64,000 nt of DNA, taken from NCBI RefSeq assembly GCF_018310535.1, contig NZ_CP074103.1, positions 248,001 to 312,000 of the forward strand. Direction: 5' to 3'. Positions within the stretch are counted from its first letter, which is position 1. Each line of letters begins with the position of its first letter. The DNA is from Streptomyces mirabilis (GTDB taxonomy: Bacteria > Actinomycetota > Actinomycetes > Streptomycetales > Streptomycetaceae). The notes below the pieces were generated by a model. It saw nothing but the letters and a program-made list of their open reading frames with translations. It searched no databases and was not told the DNA's origin. A program made the position numbers and the translations under genes. Positions 44,189 to 63,565 of the stretch are shown one piece after another.

Positions 44189-44260
44189 TTACGCGAGGCG
44201 GCCGGGCGAACGCATGCGGTAGTGACAGCGGGGCGCCCCACCCCTCATGATGGGCGGGTC

Positions 44261-44878
44261 ATGGCGACTTCGACCCTTGTGCCCGGCCTGCACCGTTCCG
44301 GCAGCGTGCCGTCCACGGTGCGGTTGGCGGCTGCCCGCGCGGGCGTCTTCTCGGTGACGAGCACGGTGCTCGCCGTCGTGGGACACCACGTCGTGTTCGA
44401 CGTCTCGCCGTCCTGGGCCGCTCGCGGTGTCCTCGCCGGGCTCTTCTTCGTGCTGGCTTTTCCTGGAGCCGGTCGACCGAGCCGCGTCGGGCGGCAGTTG
44501 GTACTCACCGTCGGGGCTCAGGTCCTCGGGGTCGGCTGGTTCACGGCGAGCACGGGGGCGGCGTACGAGCGGTTGTCTGCCGCCTGGCCCATGGTGGTCG
44601 CGCATGTCGTCATGACGGGGCTGCTCGCGTTCCTGCTGCACGGGGCACAGGACGGCCGTCTCGCGCTGTTCCGGGTGGCGGCGGCCGAACTGCGTTCGCT
44701 GTGCGCCTGGTTGTGGAGCCTGCTCTTCCCGCGGGTCGGAGCGGAAGTCCCCGTCGCCGCACCCGTGGTCGCGCCAGCCCTCTCGGGCCCGGCCCGCGCC
44801 TCCCCACGCGAACTCACGCTCGCGGACTGTGTCGTACGCCGAGGTCCCCCTCTCGGCGTGCCGTTCACCGCTGCCTGA
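44261..44878 (+). CDS. HH-motif small membrane protein, paralogue 1
   Basis: A protein of 205 residues with about four membrane segments. After the first segment lies VVGHHVVFD. A later segment contains MVVAHVVMTGLLAFLLH, and the protein ends with LADCVVRRGPPLGV. Two more proteins in this window (55422-56072 and 56268-56879) share the HH motif and the layout, and the first of these also shares the LADxVVRRGPP tail. The family is unknown to me. Neighbours on both sides concern metals, so a metal-related membrane role is likely but inferred. Confidence 0.7.
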   Translation: MATSTLVPGLHRSGSVPSTVRLAAARAGVFSVTSTVLAVVGHHVVFDVSPSWAARGVLAGLFFVLAFPGAGRPSRVGRQLVLTVGAQVLGVGWFTASTGAAYERLSAAWPMVVAHVVMTGLLAFLLHGAQDGRLALFRVAAAELRSLCAWLWSLLFPRVGAEVPVAAPVVAPALSGPARASPRELTLADCVVRRGPPLGVPFTAA

Positions 44879-44975
44879 AACGGCCGTACGCGGCCGCGCG
44901 GGCATCGCACATTCACGCACGCACCAACGCTCACACGTCATCGGTGGCCCGACGGGGCTGCCTCAGGGGGAATTC

Positions 44976-46151
44976 ATGTCCACGACCGTCGTCGTGATCG
45001 GGGCGGGCCCGTACGGCCTGTCCACCGCCGCGCATCTCACAGCGCGCGGCTTGCACGTCAGGGTCTTCGGCTCGCCGATGGCGAGCTGGGCCGAGAACAT
45101 GCCCGCGGGCATGCTGCTGAAGTCGCCGCCGAGCGCATCGATGCTGTCGGCGCCGGAGTCCGGGTTCATGCTGGACGACTACTGCCGGCAGGCGGGGGAG
45201 ACCCGGTTGGCCGGGCACGATCAGGTGCCGGTCGAGATGTTCGTACGATACGGGCGGTGGTTCGCCGAGCAGCTGGTGCCCGAGGTCGAGGACGTCCGGG
45301 TCCTCGGCGTCGACCGGCAGGCCGACGGCTTCCACCTCAAGCTCGCCTCCGGCGAGGAGTTGCGGGCCACCGCTGTGGTGGTGGCCAGCGGCATGGACGG
45401 CTTCGCGTACGTGCCGGAGCCGCTGACCGGTCTTGTCCCCGACGGGCTCGTCTCGCACAGTTCCCAGCATGCCGGCCTCGCCGGGTTCGCCGGGCGGGAC
45501 GTTCTGGTCGTCGGCGCAGGGCAGTCCGCGCAGGAAAGCGCGGCGCTGCTGCACGAGGCCGGGGCCAGGGTCCGGCTGCTGGCCCGGGCCAGGGATCTGG
45601 TGTTCGGAGCGGGGCCGACGCCGGGGCCGCACTGGCAGCCGGACACCCCGCTGGGCCGGTCCTGGGCGCTGTACGCGGTCGTCCATCAGGCAGCGGCCTT
45701 CCGCTTCCTGCCCGAGGCCACCCGGCTGCGGCTGGTGCGGCGGGTACTGGGGCCGTTCGGCTCCTGGTGGCTCAAGCCCCGCCTCGACGGGGTCGTCCCT
45801 ATGAGGTTGGGGGAGCGGATCACCGGCGCGAGGCGGGACGGCGACGGCGTCACCCTCACCACCCGGGGCGGCGACGGGCGTACCCACACGATGGAGACCG
45901 GGCACGTCCTGACCGCGACCGGCTACCGGGTCAGCCTGGACGCGCTGGACTTCGTCGCTCCTGAGCTGCGGGCCGAGCTGGCGCGTACGGGAGGGTTCCC
46001 ACGTCTCGACGCAGGGCTGCAGTCGTCTGTGCCCGGTCTGTACTTCACCGGTATCCAGGCGGCGGCGACCTTCGGTCCGCTGATGCGCTTCACCTGCGGC
46101 ACCCAGTTCGCGGCACCGCGGCTGGCGGCTGCTTTGGCGGCGCGCCTCTGA
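44976..46151 (+). CDS. FAD-dependent oxidoreductase (flavin monooxygenase-like)
   Basis: A protein of 391 residues with two Rossmann motifs: VVVIGAGPYGLSTAAHL at residue 4 for FAD and VLVVGAGQSAQESAALLHEAG (two overlapping pieces) near 175 for NAD(P). A TGYR motif (LTATGYRVS) follows toward the C-terminus. This is the arrangement of class B flavin monooxygenases and related SidA/dimethylaniline-type enzymes that oxidise amines or sulfur. The substrate is unknown. ATG 44976 has AGGGGG upstream. It precedes a His-rich protein and a PLP enzyme on the same strand. Confidence 0.82.
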   Translation: MSTTVVVIGAGPYGLSTAAHLTARGLHVRVFGSPMASWAENMPAGMLLKSPPSASMLSAPESGFMLDDYCRQAGETRLAGHDQVPVEMFVRYGRWFAEQLVPEVEDVRVLGVDRQADGFHLKLASGEELRATAVVVASGMDGFAYVPEPLTGLVPDGLVSHSSQHAGLAGFAGRDVLVVGAGQSAQESAALLHEAGARVRLLARARDLVFGAGPTPGPHWQPDTPLGRSWALYAVVHQAAAFRFLPEATRLRLVRRVLGPFGSWWLKPRLDGVVPMRLGERITGARRDGDGVTLTTRGGDGRTHTMETGHVLTATGYRVSLDALDFVAPELRAELARTGGFPRLDAGLQSSVPGLYFTGIQAAATFGPLMRFTCGTQFAAPRLAAALAARL

Positions 46152-46164
46152 GGGCGGCGGGGTG

Positions 46165-46191
46165 CGGGCGGCGCTCCGTGTGAGCGCTGCC
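46165..46191 (+). terminator. Hairpin after the FAD oxidoreductase gene
   Basis: GGGCGGCGCTC and GAGCGCTGCCC form an 11-bp stem with one G-T pair and a 5-nt loop, 14 bp past the stop. It likely ends or attenuates transcription before the His-rich gene. Confidence 0.6.
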
Positions 46192-46250
46192 CCGCGTCCT
46201 CCGCAAGTCACCGATGCGACGTAGCGTAGTTGATCGAATACGCTGTGTAG

Positions 46251-46721
46251 GTGATCGGAGTGCGGGTCGGGGCGAGCGCCGCCGGGCGTCCGGGCCGGGT
46301 CGGCCTGCTGCTCGGCCTCGTCATGCTGATCGTCGCCCATCTCTCCGGTACCGGGCACGGCGCGTCTTTCACTGGACCGCATGTGAGTGCCGCCGTCGAG
46401 GTCTTTTCCCACCACGACCACCACGACCACCACGAGGATGCCGACGACGGAACACTCGCGCCGTCCCTCGGGCATGACCACCCCGGGCACGACCACCCCG
46501 GGCACGATCACAAGGGGGACGGACACGATCACGCGGCGGACCGGCCCCGCGCCGCCGTCGACGACACGGTCGCCGAAGCCGAGCAGGATGGGCTCTCGCC
46601 GATCCTGCCCGCGGCCCCGGGGTCTTCCGCCGGGCCCGCTGCCTGGCATCGCCCACCTGGCGTTGCCCGCTCCCGGGACGGCCCTTCCACCCTCGCGCTC
46701 CACTGCGTCTGGCGGCAGTAG
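46251..46721 (+). CDS. His-rich exported protein, paralogue 1
   Basis: A protein of about 156 residues with an N-terminal hydrophobic segment ([17 protein letters not shown]) and a strongly His/Asp-rich middle: [11 protein letters not shown], then repeats of [21 protein letters not shown]. The C-terminus ends with LHCVWRQ. A second protein at 59759-60208 has the same plan and a closing LCLWRI. Such His clusters bind Zn, Ni, Co or Cu; the protein may be an extracytoplasmic metal buffer. The exact start is uncertain (GTG 46251 chosen). Confidence 0.65.
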
Positions 46722-46845
46722 GCGCGCCCGCATGCTCTGCCCCGACCGGGCCTGTCGCCCGGGGGCTGCGGCGTGCCCGCGCGTCCATCGAACCGCCTGC
46801 ACCGCACCCCTGCCTCCGTGCGGGGTGCGAAGGAGCCGTACGCAC

Positions 46846-47976
46846 ATGAACTTCTCCCTGCTCCACCTTCCCCTCGAGGCGAATGCCCCTCTGCCCGTGA
46901 TCGCCCGTCGTCCCGCTCAGCTCGTGGGCAACACCCCGGTCCTGTGGATTGACGAACCCTTCGCGCCGCTGGGCCGCGGCTTCTACGCCAAGCTGGAGGG
47001 GGCCAACCCCGGCGGCATCAAGGACCGCCCGGGTCTGCACATGGTCCGTGAGGCCCGGCGCCGCGGAGAACTCACACCCGGCGCGCCGATCGTCGAGTCC
47101 TCCAGCGGTACCCTCGGGCTGGGCCTCGCCCTGGCCGGACTGACGTATGGCCATCCGGTCACCGTCGTCTCCGACCCCGGCATGGAACCGTCCATGGTCC
47201 GGCTGCTCACCGCCCTCGGCGCGCACGTCGAACACGTCGCCGCCCCGCACCCCGAGGGCGGCTGGCAGCAGTCCCGGCGCGAGCGCGTCGCCGAGCTGCT
47301 GGCCGGCATCCCGGACGCCTACTGCCCGGACCAGTACCACAACCCCGACAACGTGGCGGCCTACCGGCCCCTGGCCACGGAACTCATCGCCCAGCTCGGA
47401 CGCGTCGACGTCCTGGTGGCCGCGGTCGGCACAGGAGGACACTCCGCCGGCACCGCCTCGGTCCTCCGTGAGTCCTTCCCCGGCCTGACCCTGATCGGCG
47501 TCGACGCGATCAGCTCGGCGATCTTCGGGCAGCCCGCCGGCCCCAGGCTGATGCGCGGCCTGGGCTCCAGCATCCATCCCGCCAACGTCGACTACGGGGC
47601 CTTCGCCGAGGTTCACTGGGTGGCCCCGGCCGAAGCGGTCTGGGCCTGCCGTCAGCTGGCCCGCCGCCACTACGCGTCCGGCGGCTGGAGCGTCGGTGCC
47701 GTCGCCCTCGTCGCCGGATGGGTCGCCCGTACGTTCTCCGACGGGACCCGGGTCGCCGCAATCTTCCCTGACGGCCCGCACCGCTACCTGGAGACCGTCT
47801 ACAACGACGCCTGGTGCGACGAACACGGACTCCTCGGCCAGGAGCCGCCGCTGGAGCCGGACGAGATCGCCGAGCCCGACGAGTGCGTGGTGACCGGCTG
47901 GACGCGGTGCAACAAGGTCCGCGATCCGCTGGGCCGCACTCCCGCCGCCGACCGTTCAGAGGCAGGTGTCCGATGA
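46846..47976 (+). CDS. Cysteine-synthase-like PLP-dependent enzyme
   Basis: A fold-type II PLP enzyme of 376 residues. The Schiff-base lysine is K59 in GGIKDRPG, the substrate Asn-loop is [12 protein letters not shown], and the phosphate-binding Gly loop is [10 protein letters not shown]. It resembles cysteine synthase/CBS and the SbnA-type enzymes that make amino-acid precursors of metallophores. The C-terminal about 50 residues ([13 protein letters not shown]) go beyond the usual core. ATG 46846 has AGGAG 9 nt upstream. Its stop overlaps the MFS gene by 4 bp, so product and exporter are probably linked. Confidence 0.85.
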
Positions 47977-49232
47977 GGGGCGGGGGCCTGCGGGTCCAGG
48001 TGGCCTCCTTCGACCGCCCGGCGCAGTTGTTGATGGTCAACCAGTTCGCCATCAACCTCGGCTTCTACATGCTCATGCCCTACCTCGCCGACCACCTCGC
48101 CCATGGCCTCGGCCTCGCGGCCTGGGCGGTCGGCCTGGTCCTCGGTATCCGCAACCTCTCCCAGCAGGGCATGTTCCTCATCGGGGGCACCCTCGCCGAC
48201 CGCTACGGCTGCAAGCCGATGATCCTGACCGGCTGCGCCCTGCGCACGGTCGCCTTCGGGCTGCTCGCGTTCGCGGACACGCTGCCCGCGCTGATCGCGG
48301 CATCGGCTCTGACCGGCCTGGCGGGCGCGCTGTTCAACCCGGCCGTACGCGCCTACCTCGCCGCCGACGCGGGAGAGGAACGTCGCGTCGAAGCCTTCGC
48401 CGCGTTCAACGTCTTCTATCAGGCGGGCGTCCTCATCGGCCCGCTCGCCGGCCTCGCGCTGCTGACCTGGGACTTCAGCGCCGTGTGCGCCGTCTCGGCG
48501 CTCATCTTCGGAGCTCTGGCCGTGCTTCAGGCCCGTGCCCTGCCCACGCGCGCGCCGGCCGATCGGGGCGCCGAGCCCGCCTGGCGCGCGGTGGCCTCCG
48601 ACTGGCGCGCCATCGCCGCCAACCGTCCCTTCCTCCTCTTCGCCGCCGCGATGAGCGGCTCGTACGTCCTGGCGTTCCAGGTCTATCTCGCCCTGCCGCT
48701 CCGGGCCCGCGAACTCTTCGGTGACCGGACCGGCTTGGTGACGGGCGCGGTCTTCGCCGTCTCGGCGCTGGCCGCCCTGTCGGGGCAGCTGAAGCTGACC
48801 GCGTGGGCGAAGCGGAACCTGTCCGGGCCGCGGGCCATCGTGTACGGGTTGGTGGTGATGGGGGTCGCCTTCCTGCCGCTGCTGCCCGGGCCTTATGACG
48901 GAGCGGCGGGCCTTGCGGCGGGAGTGCTCACCCTCGTCCTGTGTGCGGCGCTGCTGGCCTGGGGCGGGTCGCTGCTCTACCCGTTCGAGATGGACACCGT
49001 GGTCCGGCTGTCCGGGGACCGGCTCGTCGCGACCTACTACGGCGCGTACAGCACCGCGTCCGGCATCGCGATCTCGTTGGGGAACCTGGCGGTCGGAGCG
49101 CTCTTCGACACCGGGGTGCGCTGGCTGCCGTGGGCGGCTCTCGCCGCCACGGGGCTGGGCTGCGCGGGACTCGTGACGCGCTTGCACCGTACGGGACATC
49201 TCGCGCCGCGTCCGGTCGCGGTGCCGGGGTGA
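47973..49232 (+). CDS. MFS transporter coupled to the PLP enzyme
   Basis: A protein of 419 residues with about twelve membrane segments and the MFS loop 2-3 motif ([12 protein letters not shown]). It starts at ATG 47973 inside the stop of the PLP enzyme gene (ATGA). It resembles drug/metabolite efflux carriers. Coupling suggests export of whatever the PLP enzyme makes. It converges with the ArsR gene, whose stop lies 38 bp away. Confidence 0.85.
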
Positions 49233-49269
49233 TGCGAGCGAGGCGTACGCCCTGTATCCGGCTCGCCGG

Positions 49270-49653
49270 CTACAGGGCGGCTTCGGCCGTGGCGGCGGCC
49301 GGGGCGTCACGCAGGCCGAGACGCAGGTGCTCGACGTGGAAGAGGGCCTGTTCGAGCAGTTCGGCCACGTGGTTGTCGTACAGCGCGTAGATGACCGAGC
49401 GGCCCCGGCGCTCGCCGGTGACCAGGCCGAGGTTGCGCAGCAGGCGCAGCTGGTGGGAGCAGGCCGACTGCTCCATGCCGACGGCATCGGCGAGCTCGGT
49501 CGCCGCGCACGGGCCTTCCTGGAGCCTGGCCAGGATGCGCAGCCGGGAGGGGGTCGCGAGGGCCTGGAGCGTGGCTGCCACATCGGTGGCGCCCACGGTT
49601 TCCAGGCGCTCGCGCGCAGTGGCGGTGATCTTGGCGTCAGCTCCATGGCCCAT
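49270..49653 (-). CDS. ArsR/SmtB-family metal sensor (alpha5-type site), 1
   Basis: A protein of 127 residues. The winged helix (ATPSRLRILARL, GMEQSACSHQLRLLRN) is followed by the exact alpha5 metal motif D-x-H-x10-H-x2-H at D93, H95, H106 and H109. This is the site used by SmtB, CzrA and NmtR for Zn, Co or Ni. Cys65 in the recognition helix could add a ligand. It is divergent from the P1B-4 ATPase gene, and an ArsR-type palindrome lies between them, so the metal should release it from the ATPase promoter. Confidence 0.9.
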   Translation of the reverse strand: MGHGADAKITATARERLETVGATDVAATLQALATPSRLRILARLQEGPCAATELADAVGMEQSACSHQLRLLRNLGLVTGERRGRSVIYALYDNHVAELLEQALFHVEHLRLGLRDAPAAATAEAAL

Positions 49654-49668
49654 GGCCTCATCCTACGG

Positions 49669-49696
49669 ACATGAAGAAATGAATGGCTCTTCATGT
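49669..49696. promoter_or_regulatory. ArsR-type operator between arsR and the P1B-4 ATPase
   Basis: ATGAA-TGGCTC-TTCAT (49679-49694) has the 5-6-5 architecture of ArsR/SmtB operators, and ACATGAAGA (49669-49677) pairs with TCTTCATGT (49688-49696) as a longer 9-bp inverted repeat. It lies 16 bp from the regulator ATG and about 85 bp from the ATPase ATG. Confidence 0.75.
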
Positions 49697-49781
49697 GTTC
49701 CTGTATGGTCGGAGGGCAATGGCGGGCACCCTCGTGTGCCTGTACGCCCTCATGCGTCCCTCGTGAAAGACCACACCTCTC

Positions 49782-51770
49782 ATGACCTCCACCCTCACTT
49801 CGCCATCGGTCGACCGCGGCCCGGCCCTGCCCGAAGACGGTGCGCCCCGGCGGCGTACCCGGGTCTTCACGCTGCCCGAGGTGCGCTGGGCCGCGGCTGC
49901 CACCGTCCTCTTCCTGCTCGCGCTTCCCTTGCAGTTGGCCGGCGCCCCGGCGTGGGTTTGGGGGTCGCTGTACGCGCTGTCGTACGCCACCGGCGGATGG
50001 GAACCCGGCTGGGAGGGCCTGAAGGCGCTCAAGGACAAGACCCTCGACGTCGACCTGCTGATGATCGTCGCCGCGCTCGGGGCGGCCTCGATCGGCCAGG
50101 TGATGGACGGGGCGCTGCTGATCGTCATCTTCGCGACCTCGGGCGCGCTGGAGGCGCTGGCCACGGCCCGCACCGCCGATTCGGTACGCGGTCTGCTCGA
50201 CCTGGCACCCGCCACCGCCACCCGCCTCGACGCCGAAGGCGGAGAAGTGAGCGTGCCCGTCGAGAAGCTGGCGGTCGGCGACACGATCCTCGTACGCCCC
50301 GGCGAGCGCGTCGGGGCCGACGGCCGGGTATTGGACGGCGCGAGCGACGTGGACCAGGCGACCATCACCGGTGAGCCGCTGCCCGTGACGAAGGAGCCGG
50401 GGGACGAGGTGTTCGCGGGCACCCTCAACGGCACCGGAGCCCTGCGCGTCCGCGTCGAGCGCGACGCCTCCGACTCGGTCATCGCCCGGATCGTGCGCAT
50501 GGTGGAGGAGGCGTCCGAGACCAAGGCGCCCACCCAGCTGTTCATCGAGAAGGTCGAACAGCGCTACTCGCTCGGAATGGTGGCGGCGACCCTCGCCGTG
50601 TTCCTCGTCCCGCTCGCCCTCGGTGCGGCGCTGACCGGCTCCTTGCTGCGGGCCATGACCTTCATGATCGTGGCCTCGCCGTGCGCGGTGGTGCTGGCCA
50701 CCATGCCGCCGCTGCTGTCCGCGATCGCCAACGCCGGGCGGCACGGTGTGCTGGTCAAGTCCGCCGTGGTGATGGAGCGCCTCGGGCAGGTCGACGCGGT
50801 CGCGCTCGACAAGACGGGGACGCTGACCGAGGGCACTCCGCGGGTCACCGACATCCGGCCGCTGTCTGGATCCGGTCGGGAGAGCGAGTTGTTGGCGCTC
50901 GCGGCGGCGGCCGAGCACCCCAGCGAGCACCCGCTGGCCCGAGCCATCGTGGACGCCGCTCGTGAGCGCGACTTGGTGCTGACCGTGGCGGAGAACTTCG
51001 ACTCCACTCCGGGCGTGGGAGTGACGGCTACCGTGGACGGGCGCGTGATCGCGGTCGGGGCCCCTGCCCGACTGCTCCAAGGAGAGCCCGATGCGACCGC
51101 CGCACGCGCGCTGGTCCTGGCGGGCGAGCTGGAAGACGGCGGGCGTACCGCGGTCCTCGTCGAGGCGGACGGCGTCCCGGTCGGAGTCCTGGGGATCGCC
51201 GACCGCCTGCGCCCGGATGCCGCCGCCACCGTCGCTTCCCTCACCGCACTCACCGGCACCGCACCCGTGCTGCTGACCGGCGACAACCGTCGGGCCGCAG
51301 CACGCCTGGCCGCCGAGGTCGGAATCGACGACGCACGGGCCGGTCTCCTCCCGCAGCACAAGGTGAGCGCCATCAAGGAACTGGAAGGCGCGGGCCGCAA
51401 GGTCCTGATCGTCGGGGACGGCGTCAACGACGCCCCCGCCCTGGCCGCCGCCCACACCGGCGTCGCGATGGGCAGGGCGGGCTCCGACCTCGCCCTGGAG
51501 ACCGCCGACGCGGTGATCGTCCGCGACGAACTCGCCACTGTCCCCGCCGTGATCGCCCTCTCCCGCCGCGCGCGGAAGCTGGTCGTCCAGAACCTCGTGA
51601 TCGCCGGAGTGTTCATCACCGGCCTCGTCATCTGGGACCTGGCCGGCACCCTGCCCCTGCCGCTCGGCGTTCTGGGCCACGAGGGCTCCACGGTGATCGT
51701 CGGCCTGAACGGCCTGCGTCTGCTGCGTGACGCCGCCTGGAAGCGGGCCGCGTCGGAGGGCACCCGATGA
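49782..51770 (+). CDS. P1B-4-type heavy-metal ATPase (CoaT/CtpD-like)
   Basis: A protein of 662 residues with the P-type signatures ITGEPLPVTKE, DKTGTLTEG (phosphorylated D343), SEHPLARAI and GDGVNDAPAL. The transmembrane metal motif is SPC near residue 299 rather than CPC, and a HEGST motif lies in the last membrane part at H633; both define subgroup P1B-4, which exports Co, Ni, Fe or Zn. There is no N-terminal metal-binding domain, as usual for this subgroup. An alpha5-type ArsR sensor is divergent from it. The stop overlaps the ferredoxin-like gene (ATGA). Confidence 0.93.
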   Translation: MTSTLTSPSVDRGPALPEDGAPRRRTRVFTLPEVRWAAAATVLFLLALPLQLAGAPAWVWGSLYALSYATGGWEPGWEGLKALKDKTLDVDLLMIVAALGAASIGQVMDGALLIVIFATSGALEALATARTADSVRGLLDLAPATATRLDAEGGEVSVPVEKLAVGDTILVRPGERVGADGRVLDGASDVDQATITGEPLPVTKEPGDEVFAGTLNGTGALRVRVERDASDSVIARIVRMVEEASETKAPTQLFIEKVEQRYSLGMVAATLAVFLVPLALGAALTGSLLRAMTFMIVASPCAVVLATMPPLLSAIANAGRHGVLVKSAVVMERLGQVDAVALDKTGTLTEGTPRVTDIRPLSGSGRESELLALAAAAEHPSEHPLARAIVDAARERDLVLTVAENFDSTPGVGVTATVDGRVIAVGAPARLLQGEPDATAARALVLAGELEDGGRTAVLVEADGVPVGVLGIADRLRPDAAATVASLTALTGTAPVLLTGDNRRAAARLAAEVGIDDARAGLLPQHKVSAIKELEGAGRKVLIVGDGVNDAPALAAAHTGVAMGRAGSDLALETADAVIVRDELATVPAVIALSRRARKLVVQNLVIAGVFITGLVIWDLAGTLPLPLGVLGHEGSTVIVGLNGLRLLRDAAWKRAASEGTR

Positions 51771-52174
51771 GCCGCCGCCGCACAAGCGGTGCCGCGCCCT
51801 CGGCCGGTGCGCCGCAGTGCATGGTCACCGTCTGCCGGGGCTGCTGCTGCGGTACCCCGAAGGTCCCCGGCCTCGATCACGCTGCCCAGCTGTCGTCGCT
51901 GAAGACGGAGTTGGACGGGGTCGCGCGCGTCCGGGCCGTGAACTGCCTGGATGCCTGCGAACAGGCCAACGTCATCGTCGTCCAGCCCTCACCGGCCGGA
52001 CGCGCCGCAGGCGGGGCACCCGTCTGGCTCGGCCTGGTTAACGACCCCGACGCGATGGCCGACATCGCCGCCTGGATACGTGCCGGAGGACCGGGTCTCG
52101 CCGACCCGCCCGACATCCTCGACCTGTACGCGTTCGGCCCGTCCCGGCGCGTACGTCGAACCCTCGAAGCCTGA
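51767..52174 (+). CDS. Thioredoxin-fold [2Fe-2S] ferredoxin-like protein
   Basis: A protein of 135 residues with the Cys pattern of thioredoxin-like 2Fe-2S ferredoxins: VTVCRGCCCGTPKVPG (Cys 23, 26, 27, 28) and later VNCLDACEQANVIVV, where the last pair of Cys completes the cluster. It is translationally coupled to the P1B-4 ATPase. It might supply redox or metal handling to the exporter, or be a sink for iron-sulfur damage by cobalt. A cluster has not been shown. Confidence 0.78.
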   Translation: MSRRRTSGAAPSAGAPQCMVTVCRGCCCGTPKVPGLDHAAQLSSLKTELDGVARVRAVNCLDACEQANVIVVQPSPAGRAAGGAPVWLGLVNDPDAMADIAAWIRAGGPGLADPPDILDLYAFGPSRRVRRTLEA

Positions 52175-52177
52175 CCT

Positions 52178-53524
52178 CTACTGGTGGGCGTGCAGGCTGT
52201 CGGGCAGATAGTCGTGGCTGTGCCGCCAACCGGCCGGAACCCGATGAGCGTCGACGATGTGCGGATGCCCTTCGCCGAGATCGCCGTGCTCGTGTACGTG
52301 CTCGACGGTCGTCGGGGCGTGTGACGGCCACAGTCGCACCGCGAGCAGGGCGGCGAACAGGGCGATCATGCCCAGTGCGAGCACGGCCGACTGGAGTCCG
52401 GCTGCCGCGCCGAGCCAGCCGGCGAGCGGGTACGTCAGCAGCCAGCAACTGTGGGAGAGGGAGAACTGCGCGGCGAACGCGGACGTACGCTCCTCGGGCG
52501 GCGCCGCGCGGCGGATCAGCCGCCCGGTCGGCGTGAGCACCATCGAGCAGGCGGCGCCGAAGGCGGCCCAGGTGGCGAGCAGCGCGCCCCACCGCCAACC
52601 GCCGCTCCCGGCAGTCGTGATGGCGCCGAGCCCGGCGAAGACCACGGTGAGCAGCAGCGCCCCGCTCAGCATCACCACACGGTCCGAGACCCGGTCGAGC
52701 AGCCGAGGCAGCAGCAGCGCGACGAGCATCGAGCCCGCGCCGTACGCGCCGAGTGCGAGGGAGACGTCGGTGGCACTGCGGTCGAGGTGGTCGCGGACGT
52801 AGACCACGCTGTTGACCGTGACCATCGCGCTTGCGGCGGCCACCGCGAGGTTGAGGGCGAGCAGGGCGCGCAGTTGCGGCGTGGCGAAGAAGATGCGGGT
52901 GCCCGCAGTGGCTTTGGCGTACACGCTGCCACTTCGTGGCGTGGTGGTGGCGACCGGCTTGGGCAGTACGGCGGAGACCACCAGGGCGGCCGAGGCGAGG
53001 AAGCCGACCACCGTCCCCAAGAACAGCCAGTTGTACGTGATCAGCGAGAGCAGTGCGGCGGCCAGGGCCGGGCTGAACAGGCTCTCCAGGTCATAGGCGA
53101 GGCGGGACAGCGACAGCGCCTGGGTGTAGTCGCGCTCGGCGGGCAGCACATCGGGGATGACGGCCTGGAACGTCGGTGTGAACGCGGCCGACGCCGCCTG
53201 GAGCAGGAAGATCAGGACGTAGACCTGCCAGACCTGGTCCACGAACGGGAGCATCAGCGCCACCCCGGCCCGGGTGAGGTCGGCGCCGACCATGAGTGCG
53301 CGGCGGGGCAGCCGGTCGGCGATCGCGCCGATGGCCGGGGCGATCGCCACGTAGGCCACCATCTTGATCGCCAGCGCGGTGCCGAGGACCGATCCGGCAT
53401 CGGCGCCCGCGATGTCGTACGCCAGCAAGCCGAGGGCCACTGTGGCCAGGCCCGTGCCGACCAGGGCGATGACCTGGGCGGTGAAGAGGTGGCGGTAGGC
53501 GCGGTTGCGCAGTACGGAGAGCAC
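52178..53524 (-). CDS. MFS transporter with His-rich cytoplasmic tail
   Basis: About 448 residues from GTG 53524, with AAGGGA upstream; the frame is open to 53590. Twelve membrane segments of an MFS_3-type (enterobactin-exporter-like) carrier are followed by a His-rich tail (VEHVHEHGDLGEGHPHIVD, and SHDYLPDSLHAHQ at the end). The tail and the divergent alpha5-type ArsR gene suggest Ni, Co or Zn efflux. Convergent with the ferredoxin gene, its stop lies 4 bp beyond. Confidence 0.85.
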   Translation of the reverse strand: MLSVLRNRAYRHLFTAQVIALVGTGLATVALGLLAYDIAGADAGSVLGTALAIKMVAYVAIAPAIGAIADRLPRRALMVGADLTRAGVALMLPFVDQVWQVYVLIFLLQAASAAFTPTFQAVIPDVLPAERDYTQALSLSRLAYDLESLFSPALAAALLSLITYNWLFLGTVVGFLASAALVVSAVLPKPVATTTPRSGSVYAKATAGTRIFFATPQLRALLALNLAVAAASAMVTVNSVVYVRDHLDRSATDVSLALGAYGAGSMLVALLLPRLLDRVSDRVVMLSGALLLTVVFAGLGAITTAGSGGWRWGALLATWAAFGAACSMVLTPTGRLIRRAAPPEERTSAFAAQFSLSHSCWLLTYPLAGWLGAAAGLQSAVLALGMIALFAALLAVRLWPSHAPTTVEHVHEHGDLGEGHPHIVDAHRVPAGWRHSHDYLPDSLHAHQ

Positions 53525-53582
53525 GTGGCGGTCCCTTGGCCGGTCGAGGATGAGGCGCGGAGGCTCTCCACTGTACCTACAT

Positions 53583-53598
53583 GTGCGCACCTGCGCAC
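53583..53598. promoter_or_regulatory. Inverted repeat operator between MFS and arsR genes
   Basis: GTGCGCA-CC-TGCGCAC is a perfect 7-bp inverted repeat with a 2-bp spacer in the 140-bp divergent gap. It is a good candidate operator for the second ArsR sensor, although its sequence differs from the first ArsR operator. Confidence 0.65.
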
Positions 53599-53664
53599 CT
53601 ATTGACTCGGGAATTGACCCGCCGACCGCATCGATCGCTCCGTTCGGCCTCTACGCTGTGTGTC

Positions 53665-54024
53665 ATGCCTGTTCGCGAACCCCTGCCACCTGCGTCCGAT
53701 ACGCATCTGCGTGCCCCGGACAGCGAGCGCCTCGCGGCGGCGACCGGCGTGTTCTCGATGCTGTCCGACGCGACCCGACTGCACCTGCTGTGGCTGCTCG
53801 CCCAAGAGGAGTCGGATGTCGGCTCGCTGGCCGAGAACTGCGAGGCGTCGCGGACAGCGGTCAGTCAGCATCTGGCGAAGCTGCGGCTCGCGGGGCTGGT
53901 GGAGACACGCCGTGAAGGGCGGCACGTTTACTACAGCCTGAGCGACGGACACCTGCGCCGGCTCGTCATGGAGGCCCTCAGTCACGCGGATCACCGCGTG
54001 AGCGGCAAGGCTCCGCACGACTGA
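53665..54024 (+). CDS. ArsR/SmtB-family metal sensor (alpha5-type site), 2
   Basis: A protein of 119 residues from ATG 53665. The helix-turn-helix is clear (SDATRLHLLWLL, CEASRTAVSQHLAKLRLAG). It has the alpha5 motif D-x-H-x10-H-x2-H at D94, H96, H107 and H110, the same spacing as the first ArsR of the window. It is divergent from the His-tailed MFS carrier. Metal binding should release the repressor and induce efflux. Confidence 0.9.
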   Translation: MPVREPLPPASDTHLRAPDSERLAAATGVFSMLSDATRLHLLWLLAQEESDVGSLAENCEASRTAVSQHLAKLRLAGLVETRREGRHVYYSLSDGHLRRLVMEALSHADHRVSGKAPHD

Positions 54025-54043
54025 GGGAGAACCGCCAGGAGGT

Positions 54044-54225
54044 TCAGGCCGCCGAGGGGGAGGTGCCGTACGCGCCGGCTTCCTCGATCGTTCCGCCAAG
54101 CTTGTCGCGGGCCGCCTCCATGGCTGAGCGCGGGCTCGCCGAGAGTACCCAGCGGTTGCCGACCAGGTAGACGCCGCTGTACATCTGCGAGACCTTGAGC
54201 CAGTCGCGTTGGCCCGTGGCGGTAC
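54044..54225 (-). pseudogene. C-terminal remnant of an unidentified gene
   Basis: The minus strand encodes a coherent C-terminus (DWLKVSQMYSGVYLVGN, RWVLSASPRSAMEAARD, GTIEEAGAYGTSPSAA, stop) but there is no start. Its upstream end abuts a fragment of a peptidase gene on the other strand. The sequence resembles the end of a secreted protein or lipoprotein. Confidence 0.5.
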
Positions 54226-54552
54226 GCCGGTCAGGTGCGCCGTCTCGCCGAGATGGCCGCCGACGACCAGGCGGCGCTCAAGCACGGGCGGCGCACCGTG
54301 GCTTCGGCCCTGCTGGAGATGTGCAGCGCGCCCGGATCCACCGCCGTCGCACCGGGGATGCCCGCCATGACCGGCCGCGACGCCGCCGAACGCATCCGCC
54401 GACTGATCGCGTCGCCCCCCGCGCAGCCCGACAGGCTCACACGGGCCCTCACCCTGACCGCGACAGCCTTCGTGCTGACGCTGCCCCTGGTGATCGCCGT
54501 GGCCCCGGCCGTCCTGCTCGCCAACACCGCGCACCTGCCGGGAGCCGGGTGA
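54223..54552 (+). pseudogene. C-terminal remnant of an M56-type peptidase
   Basis: The plus-strand frame encodes VRRLAEMAADDQAALKHG, VASALLEMCSA and, at the end, a membrane segment (LTLTATAFVLTLPLVIAV). This is the C-terminal quarter of BlaR1/M56-type membrane peptidases of Streptomyces, with the E/D-x-x-A-D part kept. The catalytic HExxH and the N-terminal helices are missing. It abuts the other remnant near 54225. GTG 54235 could start translation, but the product would not be active. Confidence 0.6.
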
Positions 54553-54591
54553 CATACCCGGCAACTGAGCAGCAGGTCCGGTGAAGGCGAA

Positions 54592-54643
54592 GGCCCCTTC
54601 ACTCCGCGACGCGCCCTGACGGCGGCCGCGGAGTGAAGGGGCC
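54592..54643. terminator. 17-bp stem bidirectional terminator
   Basis: GGCCCCTTCACTCCGCG pairs perfectly with CGCGGAGTGAAGGGGCC around an 18-nt loop, between the peptidase remnant (+) and the YcnI gene (-), 6 bp from the latter's stop. Confidence 0.8.
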
Positions 54644-54649
54644 GATCCA

Positions 54650-55366
54650 CTACCGCTGTGCGCCCGACCGGCGTCGTACGGCGTAGCCCACCGCCAGCAG
54701 CGCGACCAGGACCGCCGCGCCGATACCCACCCAGGCACCTGCCGACAACCCGCCGTCATCGTCCTTCTTCGCCTCGGCGGCGGGTGAGGCAGAAGCCTCC
54801 TCGGCCGCCGGAGAAGCGGACGCCGACGGGGCCTCGGACGCGGTCTCGCTCGGGGACGGGCCGGCCGCCTTCGAGCCACCCGCGGCGGCCTTCAGCTTGA
54901 GCACCGGCGCCGGTTCCTCGCTGCCGTCGCCGAGCTCGATCCAGCGGTCGGTGTGACCGTCGCTGTAGGTCTGCAGCGTCTTGAACGCCAGTTCCTCGGC
55001 GTCCGGCAACTGCTTCGCAACGACCGAGTACTTTGCGTTCTCCCCGGTCTTCACGGCCGGGCCCTTGACCGTGTAGCCGTCGTCGTTCGCCGTGAACTTC
55101 CAGCCCTTGGGGCCTTCGCCGTACGTCACGTCGGCGGGCGCGATGCCCTCGGGCAGGACCACACGCAGCTCGGTGATCCCGGCCGAGTTGGACTCCGACT
55201 CGGCATCGAAGGAGAGCTCTACGTTCTCGGCGAGAGCCTGGGCCTTCTCCGACTCGACCTCCACGTGGGCGGCGGCGGGGCCGGCCGTGAGGAGAAGCGC
55301 GGTGACGGCCGTGGTGGTGGCGATGGTCAGGCGCCGTGCGGTGCCGTGGGTCTTGATGGGGGACAT
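54650..55366 (-). CDS. YcnI-family (DUF1775) copper-associated membrane-anchored protein
   Basis: A protein of 238 residues. After the signal peptide the mature chain begins with His (PAAAHVEVE), the histidine brace position that binds copper in YcnI. A beta-sandwich domain of about 130 residues follows (ITELRVVLPEGI, GYTVKGPAV), then a Ser/Ala/Glu linker and a C-terminal membrane anchor (WVGIGAAVLVALLAVGYAV) with an RRR tail. It lies 55 bp downstream of an HH-motif membrane protein gene on the same strand, so the two probably form a copper-related operon. Confidence 0.88.
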   Translation of the reverse strand: MSPIKTHGTARRLTIATTTAVTALLLTAGPAAAHVEVESEKAQALAENVELSFDAESESNSAGITELRVVLPEGIAPADVTYGEGPKGWKFTANDDGYTVKGPAVKTGENAKYSVVAKQLPDAEELAFKTLQTYSDGHTDRWIELGDGSEEPAPVLKLKAAAGGSKAAGPSPSETASEAPSASASPAAEEASASPAAEAKKDDDGGLSAGAWVGIGAAVLVALLAVGYAVRRRSGAQR

Positions 55367-55421
55367 GCGTGTCTCCAGGCGTGGTGGAACGCGGAGTGGC
55401 GCGATCGCCACCCCGGCGGGG

Positions 55422-57229: not shown

Positions 57230-57739
57230 CCGGAGTCTGTCCGGCTGACGGTGTTTCTCGGGCCTCTACGAGCGGGTGGTCGGCGCGGCGTACGGCGACG
57301 GTGCGGGGGTGTACCGCCCGGTCGACCCACCATTGCCCGGTCCCGGTGGCCAGGGCGTGCGCGGCGGGGCCGGGCGCTGCGGCCTGGAACCACCGGAGAG
57401 GGCGGGAACTGGGGACCATCTCGCCTGTACGCACATAGGGGGACAACGAAGTCAGCCTCGCCGGGTATCTGCGGCTCACCGACGAGCCGGGATCGAACAA
57501 CCGACGCAGGGTGGAATACCCCGTCGAGCGCTCGACCTCGCGATTGCGATCACGGGCTAGTACCACGTTGACGGGAAGCGTGCGCTCAGCCTGTGGCTCC
57601 GGCCAGGGGGCGGGGATGAGCCGGCCAGGTGGCGGGGGCGTTCCGGACACATGAGGGATGGTCGTCCCTGTACGTATCGGCGACTGTGGGGCGTATGACG
57701 CCGGGAGCAGGAGTGGTCGTTCGGTCTGAGGAGGCGCCC
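57230..57739. other. 510-bp gap with a possible acetyltransferase remnant on the minus strand
   Basis: No intact gene is supported. The minus strand between about 57440 and 57240 encodes RPLRWFQAAAPGPAAHALATG and QWWVDRAVHPRTVAVR (in shorter pieces), which resembles the N-terminal region of Streptomyces GNAT-like proteins. There is no complete domain around it, so it is probably a gene fragment. The right end holds the promoter of the DUF418 gene. Confidence 0.3.
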
Positions 57740-58930
57740 GTGCCGGGAACACGCTTCTCCTCTTATCTGACGTCCTCCACGGGGCGGCTGATCGGCCTTG
57801 ACGTGGCTCGCGGTCTGGCGGTGTTCGGTATGTATGCCGCCCATGTGGGTCCCGAGCCGACGGTAGGCGGTGCTCAGGGCTGGCTGATGGAAGTGGCTCG
57901 CGGCCGCCCCGCCACCCTGTTTGCTCTGCTCGCCGGATTTTCCCTCGTCATCCTCACTGGGAGGCCGGAACCGAAGACCGGCCGCGAGGGGCGGCAGGCC
58001 ATGGGCCGTGTGCTCATTCGCTCAGCGGTTCTGATCGGCCTGGGGTTCGCTCTGACAACCCTCGACACCCCGGTCGATGTGATCCTCGCTGCCTACGGGA
58101 TGCTTTTCGTCCTGGCACTCCCGCTGAACCGGCTTCCGGCGGGCACCCTGGCGGTCATCGCCGCGGCGACCGCCCTGGTGATGCCACCGGTTCTGTACCT
58201 CTTGCAGGTCGCGACAGAGGACGGGAGCTGGTCGGACACCGTGATCGCCCTTGATCCGCTTGCGCGGATCACAGGCTCCGACGGGTTCGTCGAGCTGTTC
58301 GTGACCGGTGAGTACCCCGTGCTGACCTGGTTCCCCTTCATCATGGCGGGCATGGTCGTGGCCAGGCTCGACCTCACCCGGCCCCGGGTTCTCGGCAAAG
58401 TCGCCGTCACGGGGGGCGCGCTGGCCGTGCTCGGCTACGGCGGCTCCTGGCTGGCCCTGCGCCTGGTCCCGGGCGCCCAGTCCGCCGTGGCGGCGGCGAC
58501 GGACGGTGGTTCGGCCGCGTCCGCCTGGTGGTCCGACACCGTGGGCGATCCCACCGCCTTCACTCCGTACTGGCTGCTGGTGGCCGCGCCGCACAGCCAG
58601 ACGACCTGGTCCATCGTCGGCAACACCGGCGTCGCCCTCGCCGTCCTGGCCCTCTGCTTCATCGCCACGTCCCGGGCCGCGCTCGTTCGCCGACCGACCA
58701 GCCCCATCGCGGCGGTCGGCTCCATCGCCCTGACCGCCTACGTCGGCCACATCGTGGCGATCTGGGCCCTGGGTATCGACCACCTTCCCGACTCTGCCGC
58801 TCTGCCGGTGCTCTTGGGCTTCATCGCGGTGACCACGCTGCTTGCACTGGCCTGGACGTATGGATTCCGGCGCGGACCGCTCGAGTACCTGATGCACGCC
58901 GCCACAACACCGGCTCGCCTGATCACCTGA
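57740..58930 (+). CDS. DUF418 family membrane protein
   Basis: About 396 residues from GTG 57740, behind GAGGAGG; the frame extends upstream to 57629. Nine or ten membrane segments are present. The N-terminus (GRLIGLDVARGLAVFGMYAAHVG) is the DUF1624/heparan-type start with the conserved D-x-x-R-G. The C-terminal part (GSIALTAYVGHIVAIWALG) is the DUF418 signature. Members are thought to be membrane acyltransferase-like proteins of unknown substrate. It lies 17 bp before the phosphatase-like gene. Confidence 0.82.
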   Translation: MPGTRFSSYLTSSTGRLIGLDVARGLAVFGMYAAHVGPEPTVGGAQGWLMEVARGRPATLFALLAGFSLVILTGRPEPKTGREGRQAMGRVLIRSAVLIGLGFALTTLDTPVDVILAAYGMLFVLALPLNRLPAGTLAVIAAATALVMPPVLYLLQVATEDGSWSDTVIALDPLARITGSDGFVELFVTGEYPVLTWFPFIMAGMVVARLDLTRPRVLGKVAVTGGALAVLGYGGSWLALRLVPGAQSAVAAATDGGSAASAWWSDTVGDPTAFTPYWLLVAAPHSQTTWSIVGNTGVALAVLALCFIATSRAALVRRPTSPIAAVGSIALTAYVGHIVAIWALGIDHLPDSAALPVLLGFIAVTTLLALAWTYGFRRGPLEYLMHAATTPARLIT

Positions 58931-58947: not shown

Positions 58948-59568
58948 ATGACGGTTCGTCTGACGCTGTGCGCGACCACCGCAGACCACAGTAGGGAAAC
59001 CGTGTTCGGCGACGGCTCCCCGAACGAGTACAGCCTGCGCGACGTGGATATCGTCGCGGCGGCACTGCGCCCGAACACGGTGATCCTCCACGCACCCTCG
59101 ACCCGCTGTGCGCAGACCGCTGCCGCCCTCGGACGGGAATCAGTCCCCGAGCTCGCGCTGCGTGACATCGACTACGGCACATGGCACGGCCGCACCGTCG
59201 GCGACGTCGCCGTCGCCGACCCGTACGGCCTCAGCGCATGGCTCACGGACCCCGACGCCGCGCCGCACGGAGGCGAGTCCGTACGGCAGCTCTGCCTACG
59301 GACGCAGCGCTGGCTGCACAGCCTGACGCCCGGCAGCGCTCGGATACTGGTCATCGCCGAACCCGCTGCGGTCCGTGCCCTGCTCGTCAACGCGATGTCC
59401 GTACCGGCGACCGCCTTCTGGCACCTCTTCTTGCACACCTCCACCCCGGTACCCCTCGCGTGGCACGACGGCGGCTGGAACGTCGAGCCCAGGAGCGCCG
59501 CAGTCATCAGGAGCAGAGAGCCTGCCGAGCGGTCCACATGCCAGGCCCCGCGTTGGCGGAGGTATTGA
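58948..59568 (+). CDS. Histidine-phosphatase-like protein lacking catalytic histidines
   Basis: A protein of 206 residues in the histidine phosphatase superfamily by pattern (HAPSTRCAQTAAALG, DIDYGTWHGRTV, PHGGESVRQL, AFWHLFLH). The N-terminal R-H-G is replaced by LCATTADH, and the second catalytic His region reads VIAEPAAVRALL. An actinobacterial subgroup with the same AEPAAVRA-type loop occurs beside cobalt transporter genes. Without the catalytic His it is likely a non-enzymatic or altered protein. ATG 58948 follows GAGGAGG. Confidence 0.75.
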   Translation: MTVRLTLCATTADHSRETVFGDGSPNEYSLRDVDIVAAALRPNTVILHAPSTRCAQTAAALGRESVPELALRDIDYGTWHGRTVGDVAVADPYGLSAWLTDPDAAPHGGESVRQLCLRTQRWLHSLTPGSARILVIAEPAAVRALLVNAMSVPATAFWHLFLHTSTPVPLAWHDGGWNVEPRSAAVIRSREPAERSTCQAPRWRRY

Positions 59569-60335: not shown

Positions 60336-60737
60336 ATGCACCAGTCTTCCCTTGGCATGCCCCCGCGCGGCGTCGGCCGCTCTCTCACAGCGGCGGAAGG
60401 CGACACACCGGCCGTCCGGATCTCCGCCCCACTCACACCGGCCGGCCGGGACTCGTGGGCCAGGCTCGAAGCCTTCCGCCCCAGCGGTCCCAAGGACCGC
60501 TCCGCCCTCCCCACGTTCGCCATGGTCCGCGCGCGGGGCGATCTGCTCCTCGGCGTCGCCATCATCGAGTCCAGCAACTCCCGGTCCCCCGACCAGTGCT
60601 CCAGCCCCGGCAACGCCGACACTGCACCGGCCCACGAACTCTTCGGGCGGCAGGGCACTGCCATGCCCGTACCCGGGCACCGGACGCCGGCCGCACGGGT
60701 CAGTTCCGACCTCCAGGTCCTCGGGGGGCGGTCGTGA
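60336..60737 (+). CDS. Hypothetical small protein coupled to Pls-like gene
   Basis: A protein of 133 residues from ATG 60336 that ends in TGA 60735-60737 inside the GTG of the next gene (GTGA). It is Ser/Pro/Arg/Ala-rich without a recognised domain. The overlap is the main reason to believe it. It might be a real partner of the Pls-like protein or a decayed gene. Confidence 0.4.
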   Translation: MHQSSLGMPPRGVGRSLTAAEGDTPAVRISAPLTPAGRDSWARLEAFRPSGPKDRSALPTFAMVRARGDLLLGVAIIESSNSRSPDQCSSPGNADTAPAHELFGRQGTAMPVPGHRTPAARVSSDLQVLGGRS

Positions 60738-63565
60738 GCCCCCACAGCGGCGAGAGCGTCGCCGCCACGACAACGACGACCGAGGACGCGACGGGCACGG
60801 GTACGGGAGTAGCCCGTACCGAGTACCGGCTGGCCGAGGTGCTGGCAGCCGTTCTGCGGTTGGAGCGGGTATCGGTCGACAGCCACTTCTTCGACGATCT
60901 GGGTGCCGACTCGCTGGTGATGGCGCAGTTCTGCGCCCGCGTGCGCAAGCAGGACGACCTGCCCACGGTGTCGATGAAAGACATCTACCGGTACCCGACG
61001 ATCCAGGGTCTGGCGACTGCGATTCCAGTCAGCGCACCTTCGCCCGACGCGGCCGGCGCGGCCGAGGTAGGGACGGCGATCGGCGCGTCACACGCCATGG
61101 ACGTGCGGCTGGCCGAGGTGCTGGCAGCCGTTCTGCGGGTGGAGCGGGTGTCGGTCGACAGCCACTTCTTCGACGATCTGGGTGCCGACTCGCTGGTGAT
61201 GGCGCAGTTCTGCGCCCGCGTGCGCAAGCAGGACGACCTGCCCACGGTGTCGATGAAAGACATCTACTGGTACCCGACGATCAAGACTCTGGCGGCCGCG
61301 TTCGCGGTCACCGAGCCGTCCCCGGCCCAAACCCAGGCACCGTCTGGAACTCCGTTGCCCAGCAGGGCTCAGCCCGTCGAGGCATCGCCCGGTGACGCGG
61401 AGGAGCCGCCGCTCGGCACTGTGCCGTACGTGCTGTGCGGGGCGGCGCAGCTCTTCTTCTTCCTCGTCTTCTCGTCCGTCGGTGGCCTGGTCGCCATCGA
61501 AGGCTACGAGTGGGTCATGGAGGACTCCAGGACCGTCGATCTCTACCTGCGCGCGGTGTCGTTCAGCGCGGCGGTCTTCTGCGGACTGTGTGCCCTTCCA
61601 GTCGTCGCCAAGTGGCTACTTGTCGGTCGCTTCACCCGGCGCAGAGTGCGGGTGTGGAGCCTCGCCTACCTGCGCTTCTGGTGCGTGAAAGCGCTCATTC
61701 GCACCAGCCCGGCGCGGCTGCTCGCCGGTTCACCGCTCTACGGGCTCTATCTGAGAGCCCTCGGCGCACACATCGGGAAGGGCGTCATCATCCTCTCCCG
61801 GACCGTTCCGGTCTGCACCGACCTGCTCTCCATCGGTGACGGCACGCTCGTCCGCAAGGACGTCCACCTGTCCTGCTACCGAGCGCACAACGGCTGGATC
61901 GAGACGGGCTCCGTCACCCTCGGCGCACAGGTGATCGTCAGCGAGCACACCGTGCTCGACATCGACACAGCGATGGGAGACGGCGCCCGGCTCGGCCACG
62001 CCTCGTCCTTGCAGCCAGGCCAGAGCATCCCGGTCGGCGAGTCCTGGCACGGCTCGCCCGCCGAGGCGACGACGACCGACTACGGCACTGTCCCGTCCGC
62101 TCCGTGCGGCACTCTGCGCCAGGCCACCTACAGCTTGGGGCAGCTTGCGGCCATGCTGCTGGTGTATCTGCCGATGTCGGTGGCCGGCGTGAGCATCGTG
62201 CTGTCCGTAGTACCGCAGCTGAACGCAGTGCTGAGCCCAGAGTCATCGGCCCTCACGGACCCGATGTTCGTCCTCGCCGCCCTGCTGGCTTCCCTGGTGG
62301 CCTTCATCGGTGCCGTGCTGGCAGGTCTGCTCCTGGTGAGCACCCTGCCCCGCCTGCTCAGCCTGGCGATCAAGCCGGACAGAATCTATCCGCTGTACGG
62401 CTTCCACTACAGCGTCCAGCGAGCGATCCTGCGGCTGACCAACATCAGATTCTTCACCACGCTGTTCGGGGACAGCTCCGCGATCGTGCACTACCTGCGC
62501 TGCCTGGGCTACGACCTCCGCAACGTCCAGCAGACCGGGTCGAACTTCGGCACGATGGTCAAGCACGACACCCCGTACCTGAGCAAGGTCGGCAGCGGAA
62601 CGATGGTGGCCGACGGCCTGTCGATCATCAACGCCGAGTTCTCCAGCACGTCCTTCCGGTTGTCCAGGACCTCGATCGGGGCGGACAACTTCCTCGGAAA
62701 CAACGTCGCCTACCCCCCGGGCGGCCGCACGGGCGCCAACTGCCTGCTCGCGACCAAGGTGATGGTCCCCATCGACGGGCCCGTACGTGAAGGCGTGGGA
62801 CTGCTGGGCTCGCCCAGCTTCGAGATCCCGCGCACCGTCATGCGCGACACCCAATTCGACGACCTGGCCACCGGCGACCAACTGCGACGACGCCTGGCGG
62901 CCAAGAACCGGCACAACGCGCTCACCGCGAGCCTTCACCTGCTGATGCGATGGTTCCACTTCGTCGTACTCGCCCTCATCGCCATGGCCGCCGTCGCCCT
63001 CTACGACGCCCGCGGCGCGCTGGTGCTGCCGCTGGCGAGCCTGGTCAGCATGGCGTTCACCATCCTCTTCTTCACCCTGGTCGAACGGGCCGTCGCCGGC
63101 TTCCGCCCTCTGAAGCCCCTGTACTGCTCGATCTACGACCCCGACTTCTGGTCACATGAACGTTTCTGGAAACTGACATCGCACCGCTACATGGAGGCGT
63201 TCAACGGCACCCCGTTCAAGCCCATGGTCTGGCGGTTGCTCGGCGCGAAGGTCGGACGCCGGGTCTTCGACGACGGCTGCTTGCTGATCGAACGCACCCT
63301 GGTGTCCATCGGAGACGACTGCACCCTCAACGTCGCGAGCGTCATCCAGTCGCATTCCCAGGAAGACGGCGCCTTCAAGTCCGACCACGCCACGCTCGGC
63401 CGGGGCGTGACACTCGGCGTCGGAGCGTTCGTCCACTACGGAACGGTCGTGGGCGATCAAGCGCAACTTGACGCCGACACCTTCCTGATGAAGGGCGAAG
63501 AGGTTCCGTCCCGGGCGCGATGGGGCGGCAACCCGGCCGTGGAGACTGGGCTCACCAATGAGTGA
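60734..63565 (+). CDS. Pls-like NRPS terminal protein with two carrier domains and no adenylation domain
   Basis: About 943 residues from GTG 60734. Two peptidyl carrier domains lie at about 31-95 and 124-188, each with the pantetheine Ser in GADSLVMAQF (Ser60 and Ser153). The rest is the C-terminal part of the epsilon-poly-lysine synthetase (Pls/PosA) type: six or so membrane segments alternating with three soluble domains rich in hexapeptide-like repeats (IGDGTLVRKDVHL, LGAQVIVSEHTVLDI, IGADNFLGNNVAY, LGRGVTLGVGAF). In Pls these domains join amino acids into a homopolymer. The adenylation domain that should load them is absent, so a separate enzyme must act in trans. A strong terminator follows. 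Confidence 0.88.
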   Translation: MSPHSGESVAATTTTTEDATGTGTGVARTEYRLAEVLAAVLRLERVSVDSHFFDDLGADSLVMAQFCARVRKQDDLPTVSMKDIYRYPTIQGLATAIPVSAPSPDAAGAAEVGTAIGASHAMDVRLAEVLAAVLRVERVSVDSHFFDDLGADSLVMAQFCARVRKQDDLPTVSMKDIYWYPTIKTLAAAFAVTEPSPAQTQAPSGTPLPSRAQPVEASPGDAEEPPLGTVPYVLCGAAQLFFFLVFSSVGGLVAIEGYEWVMEDSRTVDLYLRAVSFSAAVFCGLCALPVVAKWLLVGRFTRRRVRVWSLAYLRFWCVKALIRTSPARLLAGSPLYGLYLRALGAHIGKGVIILSRTVPVCTDLLSIGDGTLVRKDVHLSCYRAHNGWIETGSVTLGAQVIVSEHTVLDIDTAMGDGARLGHASSLQPGQSIPVGESWHGSPAEATTTDYGTVPSAPCGTLRQATYSLGQLAAMLLVYLPMSVAGVSIVLSVVPQLNAVLSPESSALTDPMFVLAALLASLVAFIGAVLAGLLLVSTLPRLLSLAIKPDRIYPLYGFHYSVQRAILRLTNIRFFTTLFGDSSAIVHYLRCLGYDLRNVQQTGSNFGTMVKHDTPYLSKVGSGTMVADGLSIINAEFSSTSFRLSRTSIGADNFLGNNVAYPPGGRTGANCLLATKVMVPIDGPVREGVGLLGSPSFEIPRTVMRDTQFDDLATGDQLRRRLAAKNRHNALTASLHLLMRWFHFVVLALIAMAAVALYDARGALVLPLASLVSMAFTILFFTLVERAVAGFRPLKPLYCSIYDPDFWSHERFWKLTSHRYMEAFNGTPFKPMVWRLLGAKVGRRVFDDGCLLIERTLVSIGDDCTLNVASVIQSHSQEDGAFKSDHATLGRGVTLGVGAFVHYGTVVGDQAQLDADTFLMKGEEVPSRARWGGNPAVETGLTNE
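60827..61295 (+). repeat. Tandem duplication of carrier-domain DNA (279-bp period)
   Basis: The stretch 60827-61016 recurs at 61106-61295 with only a few base changes, and both encode a carrier domain. Near-identity at the DNA level indicates recent duplication or gene conversion within the Pls-like gene. Confidence 0.88.

Follow-up and report, generated by a model that had tools for sequence, protein, structure and literature searches.

This locus raises the question of how a Pls-like polymer synthetase that begins with carrier domains and has no adenylation (A) domain obtains its activated monomer, and what that monomer is. The gene lies in a 64,000-nucleotide stretch of Streptomyces mirabilis (the window), which corresponds to positions 248001-312000 of contig C2 (517,982 bases) in a genome of 9.62 Mb in two contigs. 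The gene and its parts are as follows:

60734-63565, + strand: A-less Pls/PosA-type polymer synthetase of 943 aa (TIGR02353, 751 bits; PF00550 in two stretches)
60809-61051, + strand: carrier (thiolation) domain 1, with LGADSL serine (carrier HMM)
61088-61330, + strand: carrier (thiolation) domain 2, with LGADSL serine (carrier HMM, 138.1 bits)
60827-61044, + strand: direct repeat, copy 1, 218 nt, 92% identical to copy 2
61106-61323, + strand: direct repeat, copy 2
61436-63538, + strand: membrane and soluble polymerase part, six hydrophobic segments and three hexapeptide acyltransferase-like domains (TIGR02353, residues 235-935)

A profile search identified the TIGR02353 C-terminal domain in the synthetase at 751.3 bits against a cut-off of 423.1, and hydropathy and an AlphaFold2 model both place six membrane segments around three soluble domains. 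The second soluble domain on its own was not among the fold matches listed, a comparison in which families missing from the lists do not count as excluded. As in Pls and PosA, carrier (T) sequence precedes the membrane part (PF00550, two stretches), and both carriers are intact with their serine present. This layout, with a carrier ahead of the six membrane segments and three soluble domains, is shared with the epsilon-poly-L-lysine synthetase Pls and with PosA, from which the protein differs in having two carriers and in lacking the N-terminal, same-protein A domain of that family; it is 31% identical to the canonical A-T-Pls of 1410 aa on its own chromosome (C1:7062025-7066257). A Pfam scan found no AMP-binding domain within the 943 residues, nor a classical condensation domain (PF00668), for which the 32 matches of the genome are all on C1. 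An A domain upstream in frame, named by the first-pass annotation as grounds for abandoning its reading, has no room, as only 149 codons of open frame precede the start. Profiles thus bear out that annotation in describing a gene with the full Pls-like membrane and soluble C-terminal part, two carriers and no A domain. The synthetase is a real, coherent and maintained split variant of a known enzyme type which probably works like Pls, and because it has no A domain of its own, loading in trans is required.

The annotation proposed looking on the replicon itself for a stand-alone A domain. The outcome was negative, since none of the 63 AMP-binding matches of the genome is on C2 and all are on C1, so that a partner on C2 can be rejected; a fitting partner is nevertheless present on the chromosome. 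C1 encodes an A-less paralogue of the synthetase (57% identical, one carrier), followed in overlapping frames by a C'-A-T-TE protein (1089 aa; C1:2576542-2579811) and then by TauD, SbnB (TIGR03944, 422 bits) and SbnA (TIGR03945, 384 bits). This cluster (locus L037) provides the genome with supply genes of the SbnA/SbnB type for L-2,3-diaminopropionate (L-Dap), and SbnB matches are found on C1 only. We consider it fairly probable that the window synthetase does the polymerising in a poly(diamino acid) synthetase divided between two proteins, and that it receives L-Dap in trans from a borrowed A domain encoded elsewhere. The same 63 AMP-binding matches, with the complete A-T-Pls among them, leave room for loading by a different A domain of the genome, such as that of A-T-Pls itself, to give another polymer or peptide. 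We regard this as unlikely, as in a carrier tree of family members the nearest sequences apart from other orphans are carriers of diaminopropionate clusters (L078, L072), while other NRPS carriers of the same genome are only 36-39% identical to those of the synthetase.

Relatives of the synthetase were sought at E 1e-100 in 295 genomes of the genus, with the two best candidates per genome scored, which makes the counts of copies and linked pairs lower bounds. A relative occurs in 108 of the 295 genomes. A partner (A-T(-TE)) lies within 3 kb of 110 of the 130 relatives listed, usually together with the diaminopropionate enzymes TauD, SbnB and SbnA, and a linked polymerase-partner pair is present in at least 101 of the 295 genomes, one of them fused. 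The fusion is a single 2323-aa ORF (G105; L085:4161-11132) with TIGR02353 at residues 172-872 and an A domain at 1280-1688, an order of polymerase then A domain that is the reverse of canonical Pls. The 20 relatives with no partner nearby comprise five frames of 1388-1412 aa, of which the three fetched (L086-L088) show A-domain motifs; two polymerases (L083, L084) near a TIGR03098-type ligase that replaces the usual partner, a point in favour of loading by a different A domain; one (L082) in a cluster with a partner that the scoring of candidates did not cover; one (L202) at a contig end with a piece of a partner; one fragment; one (L200) in a partial cluster with SbnB and SbnA and no partner, in a genome (G240) with a linked pair elsewhere; and nine orphans. 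PF00501 occurs in five of 120 listed relatives. A scan of named genomes, from which 80 of 331 loci were kept, extended the material, giving 119 distinct fetched sequences, a non-random set as orphans were deliberately sought. Among these, 91 have a partner within 5 kb (84 of them with TauD, SbnB and SbnA too) as scored by tblastn, called ORFs alone undercounting partners. The other 28 include the three that bring an A domain themselves and two long sequences unscanned for one (L190 and L147_2; 1428 and 1608 aa). Loading in trans looks to be normal for the branch of the synthetase, judging by these gene arrangements. The conclusion of the first-pass annotation that adenylation must occur in trans is therefore backed by the missing A domain, the dedicated partner A domains of the family and the one fusion. 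Among the open-licence papers listed by a literature search, none dealt with Pls proteins that lack an A domain and have a partner to supply it.

All nine orphan genomes of the genus sample (G000, G290, G111, G218, G230, G273, G034, G263, G086) have a linked polymerase-partner pair elsewhere, compared with at least 101 of 295 genomes overall. Eight named orphan genomes were also tested, two of which (L112, L115) repeat G111 and G034; five of the six new ones (G296, G297, G299, G300, G302) have a linked pair, although in G299 the partner match beside the polymerase is only partial. A linked pair is thus found in 14 of 15 orphan genomes checked, a tally that leaves out the orphan copies L189, L191 and L147 and G240, and this co-occurrence argues against loading by a different A domain. 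The exception, Streptomyces sp. Tue6028 (G295), has the orphan closest to the synthetase (85%) among the 80 kept of 331 named-genome loci and retains it without the usual partner, which favours a different A domain. In this genome of unstated completeness no close partner was found, the six matches at E 1e-60 being 33-41% identical, and an SbnB above cut-off adjoins an NRPS. A FastTree reconstruction of the polymerase part groups twelve orphans with support, together with one linked locus (L082). The linked or orphan label switches nine times on this tree, at least six of them by supported branches, and some long branches are unsure.

The genes around the synthetase are the following:

60336-60737, + strand: decaying 133-aa fragment left from a CysM/SbnA-like PLP enzyme (TIGR01138, E 1.6e-5, 24.6 bits, far below the whole-protein cut-off)
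46387-47976, + strand: PLP-dependent enzyme (PALP; PF00291, 7.5e-52), real start inside the ORF
47814-49232, + strand: MFS transporter (PF07690)
57629-58930, + strand: DUF418 membrane acyltransferase-like protein (PF04235)
58948-59568, + strand: histidine phosphatase superfamily protein (PF00300, listed for 58948-59565)

The stop of the remnant overlaps the GTG start of the synthetase. It shares 49% identity over 70 residues with the PLP enzyme of a pls cluster in Kibdelosporangium. With the PLP gene of the window it shares 43% over 60 residues; that gene in turn is 66-69% identical, with its MFS neighbour at 43-44%, to the adjoining PLP-MFS pair of two Kibdelosporangium pls clusters. Histidine phosphatase relatives are found near two other orphans (58% in L071 and 51% in L075). 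No relatives of the partner, TauD, SbnB or SbnA were found near the window synthetase. This absence, and a dN/dS of 0.87 for the remnant against Tue6028 (131 codons), would fit a gene without a product, left over from a cluster that moved or decayed and now turning into a pseudogene, as would two features of other orphans: L075 (8532-11351; the same as L115) is missing most of the first carrier's core, including the serine, with the core kept in its second, and the match in the genome of L110 crosses one TGA. We think this improbable for the window gene, as dN/dS against Tue6028 is 0.32 over the full 943 codons, and the polymerase part gives 0.23-0.45 in comparisons with five other orphans; the synthetase is under purifying selection. 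With DUF418 also at 0.32 (397 codons), the comparison of 0.87 with 0.32 indicates that the PLP remnant decays and the polymerase is kept. The serines in both carriers, the clade of 12 orphan loci and a gene conversion that keeps the carriers intact (see below) also speak against a relic.

The DUF418 gene is found near 7 of 18 other orphan loci and 3 of 99 linked loci, and its protein may modify the product of the synthetase. This enrichment and the presence of linked pairs in 14 of the 15 genomes are what would be expected if the synthetase were an accessory to the chromosomal system, taking aminoacyl or peptidyl groups from the carrier of the partner to cap, branch or export its product; PMC10522769 mentions a poly[beta-(Dap-Dap)] of comb-like form. 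Such a role seems to us about as improbable as a relic, given that nothing is missing from the TIGR02353 part, which has the six hydrophobic segments and three acyltransferase-like domains of stand-alone polymerases. The region 42393-55411 of the window is metal-related, with an ArsP permease, a P-type ATPase, two ArsR-type regulators and a DUF1775 protein. Metal genes also lie near 4 of 18 other orphan loci (L109, L110, L113 and plasmid L189) and 0 of 99 linked loci in a search whose queries came partly from those loci, and a metal-resistance link of orphan polymerases is a lead only.

The preferred reading, loading with L-Dap by a borrowed A domain, goes beyond the view of the first-pass annotation that the polymer or peptide could not be guessed, as SbnA and SbnB in the partner clusters point to 2,3-diaminopropionate. 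At the nine positions that we take to form the substrate pocket, 12 of 13 partner A domains read by motif have D-I-W-Q-V-V-A-D-D, and L089 has A for the second V. Five of these nine positions are identical to those of DVWQMIGDDK, a code named for beta-OH-Dab in PMC12283262. The partner substrate can therefore be guessed to be L-Dap, a putative assignment from neighbour genes and the pocket code at these presumed positions.

According to PMC4668381, a Pls-type enzyme able to polymerise L-Dap is PDAPs, the poly-L-diaminopropionate synthetase of Streptomyces albulus PD-1, a 4,338-bp gene product with its own Dap-specific A domain, for which a cysteine-synthase-like and ornithine-cyclodeaminase-like pair, encoded at a distance from the synthetase, provides the monomer. 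Its C-terminal architecture as described there (likened by description rather than sequence) is that of the window synthetase, with the difference that the A domain of the latter would be on another protein. In capreomycin biosynthesis CmnA-A1 loads L-Dap in trans onto the A-less CmnI, a precedent for such loading across proteins (PMC12400406). Like the synthetase, CmnI has a carrier and no A domain of its own, but it has a classical condensation domain, in place of which the synthetase, with none by Pfam, has a membrane polymerase part. In streptothricin biosynthesis a free A domain and a separate carrier (ORF18/ORF19) make a diamino acid oligomer (PMC9606270), although chain growth there is described as mediated by the A domain itself, in contrast to a protein with a polymerase part.

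Based on the partner genes and the loading of CmnI by CmnA-A1, we infer that L-Dap is loaded in trans by the chromosomal partner and polymerised by the membrane part, with a role for both carriers. SbnA and SbnB would make L-Dap, which an A domain, most likely that of the chromosomal C'-A-T-TE protein, would adenylate; the activated residue would pass to the phosphopantetheine on the serine of each carrier, and at the membrane the three anchored acyltransferase-like domains would link the carrier-bound residues into a chain of isopeptide type. The carriers, whose likeness is maintained by gene conversion, would serve as parallel donors and so enlarge the stock of activated monomer. Plain poly-Dap offers no evident place for the TauD step, which counts against this explanation.

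The likeness of the two carriers had been ascribed by the first-pass annotation to recent duplication. Within one gene the two carriers differ by 0-6 synonymous differences over 44 codons, while orphan genes differ from one another by a mean of 12.4 and a minimum of 6 (61 pairs). In comparison with Tue6028, the carrier edges contain 36 sites shared by position and 1 shared by paralogue, against 0 and 8, respectively, in the core. Because about ten codons belong to the edge windows of both units, the edge counts are partly dependent on one another. Edges following position and cores following species rule out a recent duplication. This pattern indicates that the duplication is old, predating the split from Tue6028, and that the core has been homogenised by gene conversion.

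When the synthetase is counted together with its 120 listed relatives, a single carrier is seen in 36, two in 36, three in 42, four in four and six in one, with none found in two, a tally that is not a census because the scoring favours multi-carrier sequences. More than one carrier is found in 13 of 28 sequences without a linked partner and in 5 of 91 with one; these five (L117, L118, L125, L150, L186) all come from outside Streptomyces. The carrier count of L084 is uncertain due to a stretch of N. An association between multiple carriers and a missing partner was rejected, as a tree-based pairing test is not significant and the link vanishes once relatedness is allowed for. Several relatives have longer arrays. 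L083:8225-11623 has four carriers with a 261-bp period, the copies 88-99% identical to the reference copy, and lies near TauD, a 531-aa TIGR03098 (exosortase-associated)-type ligase and a 95-aa ORF with the look of a free carrier but no NCBIfam match (L083:4737-6818 was also noted). P0004 (1357 aa) has six carriers with neighbouring copies 79-91% alike, and L191:5818-8922, on an Arthrobacter plasmid, has three, with a ZIP metal transporter near and no listed partner gene. It is plausible that carrier number matters, because near relatives have from 1 to 6 carriers. PUFA synthases, a fatty acid system without A domain or amino acids, likewise have several carriers in a row. Productivity of their tandem ACPs is reported to rise with carrier number (PMC5067506, PMC3585217), and by analogy the two carriers of the synthetase may be parallel donors.

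These observations indicate that the Pls/PosA polymerase part and its likely activating enzyme are commonly the products of separate genes in Streptomyces (a polymerase with the partner beside it in at least 101 of 295 genomes, one of them fused), with a likely monomer and partner now named. As a doubtful extension, a polymerase on an accessory replicon could borrow the chromosomal A domain and so give hosts with the cluster, and no others, a further poly-diaminopropionate under its own regulation; this polymer might be branched or capped and tied to metal stress, and the one to six converted carriers would set its yield or chain length. A split, swappable isopeptide-polymer system becomes testable with two proteins, and arrays of one to six similar carriers, homogenised where testable, are natural variants for relating carrier number to yield or chain length.
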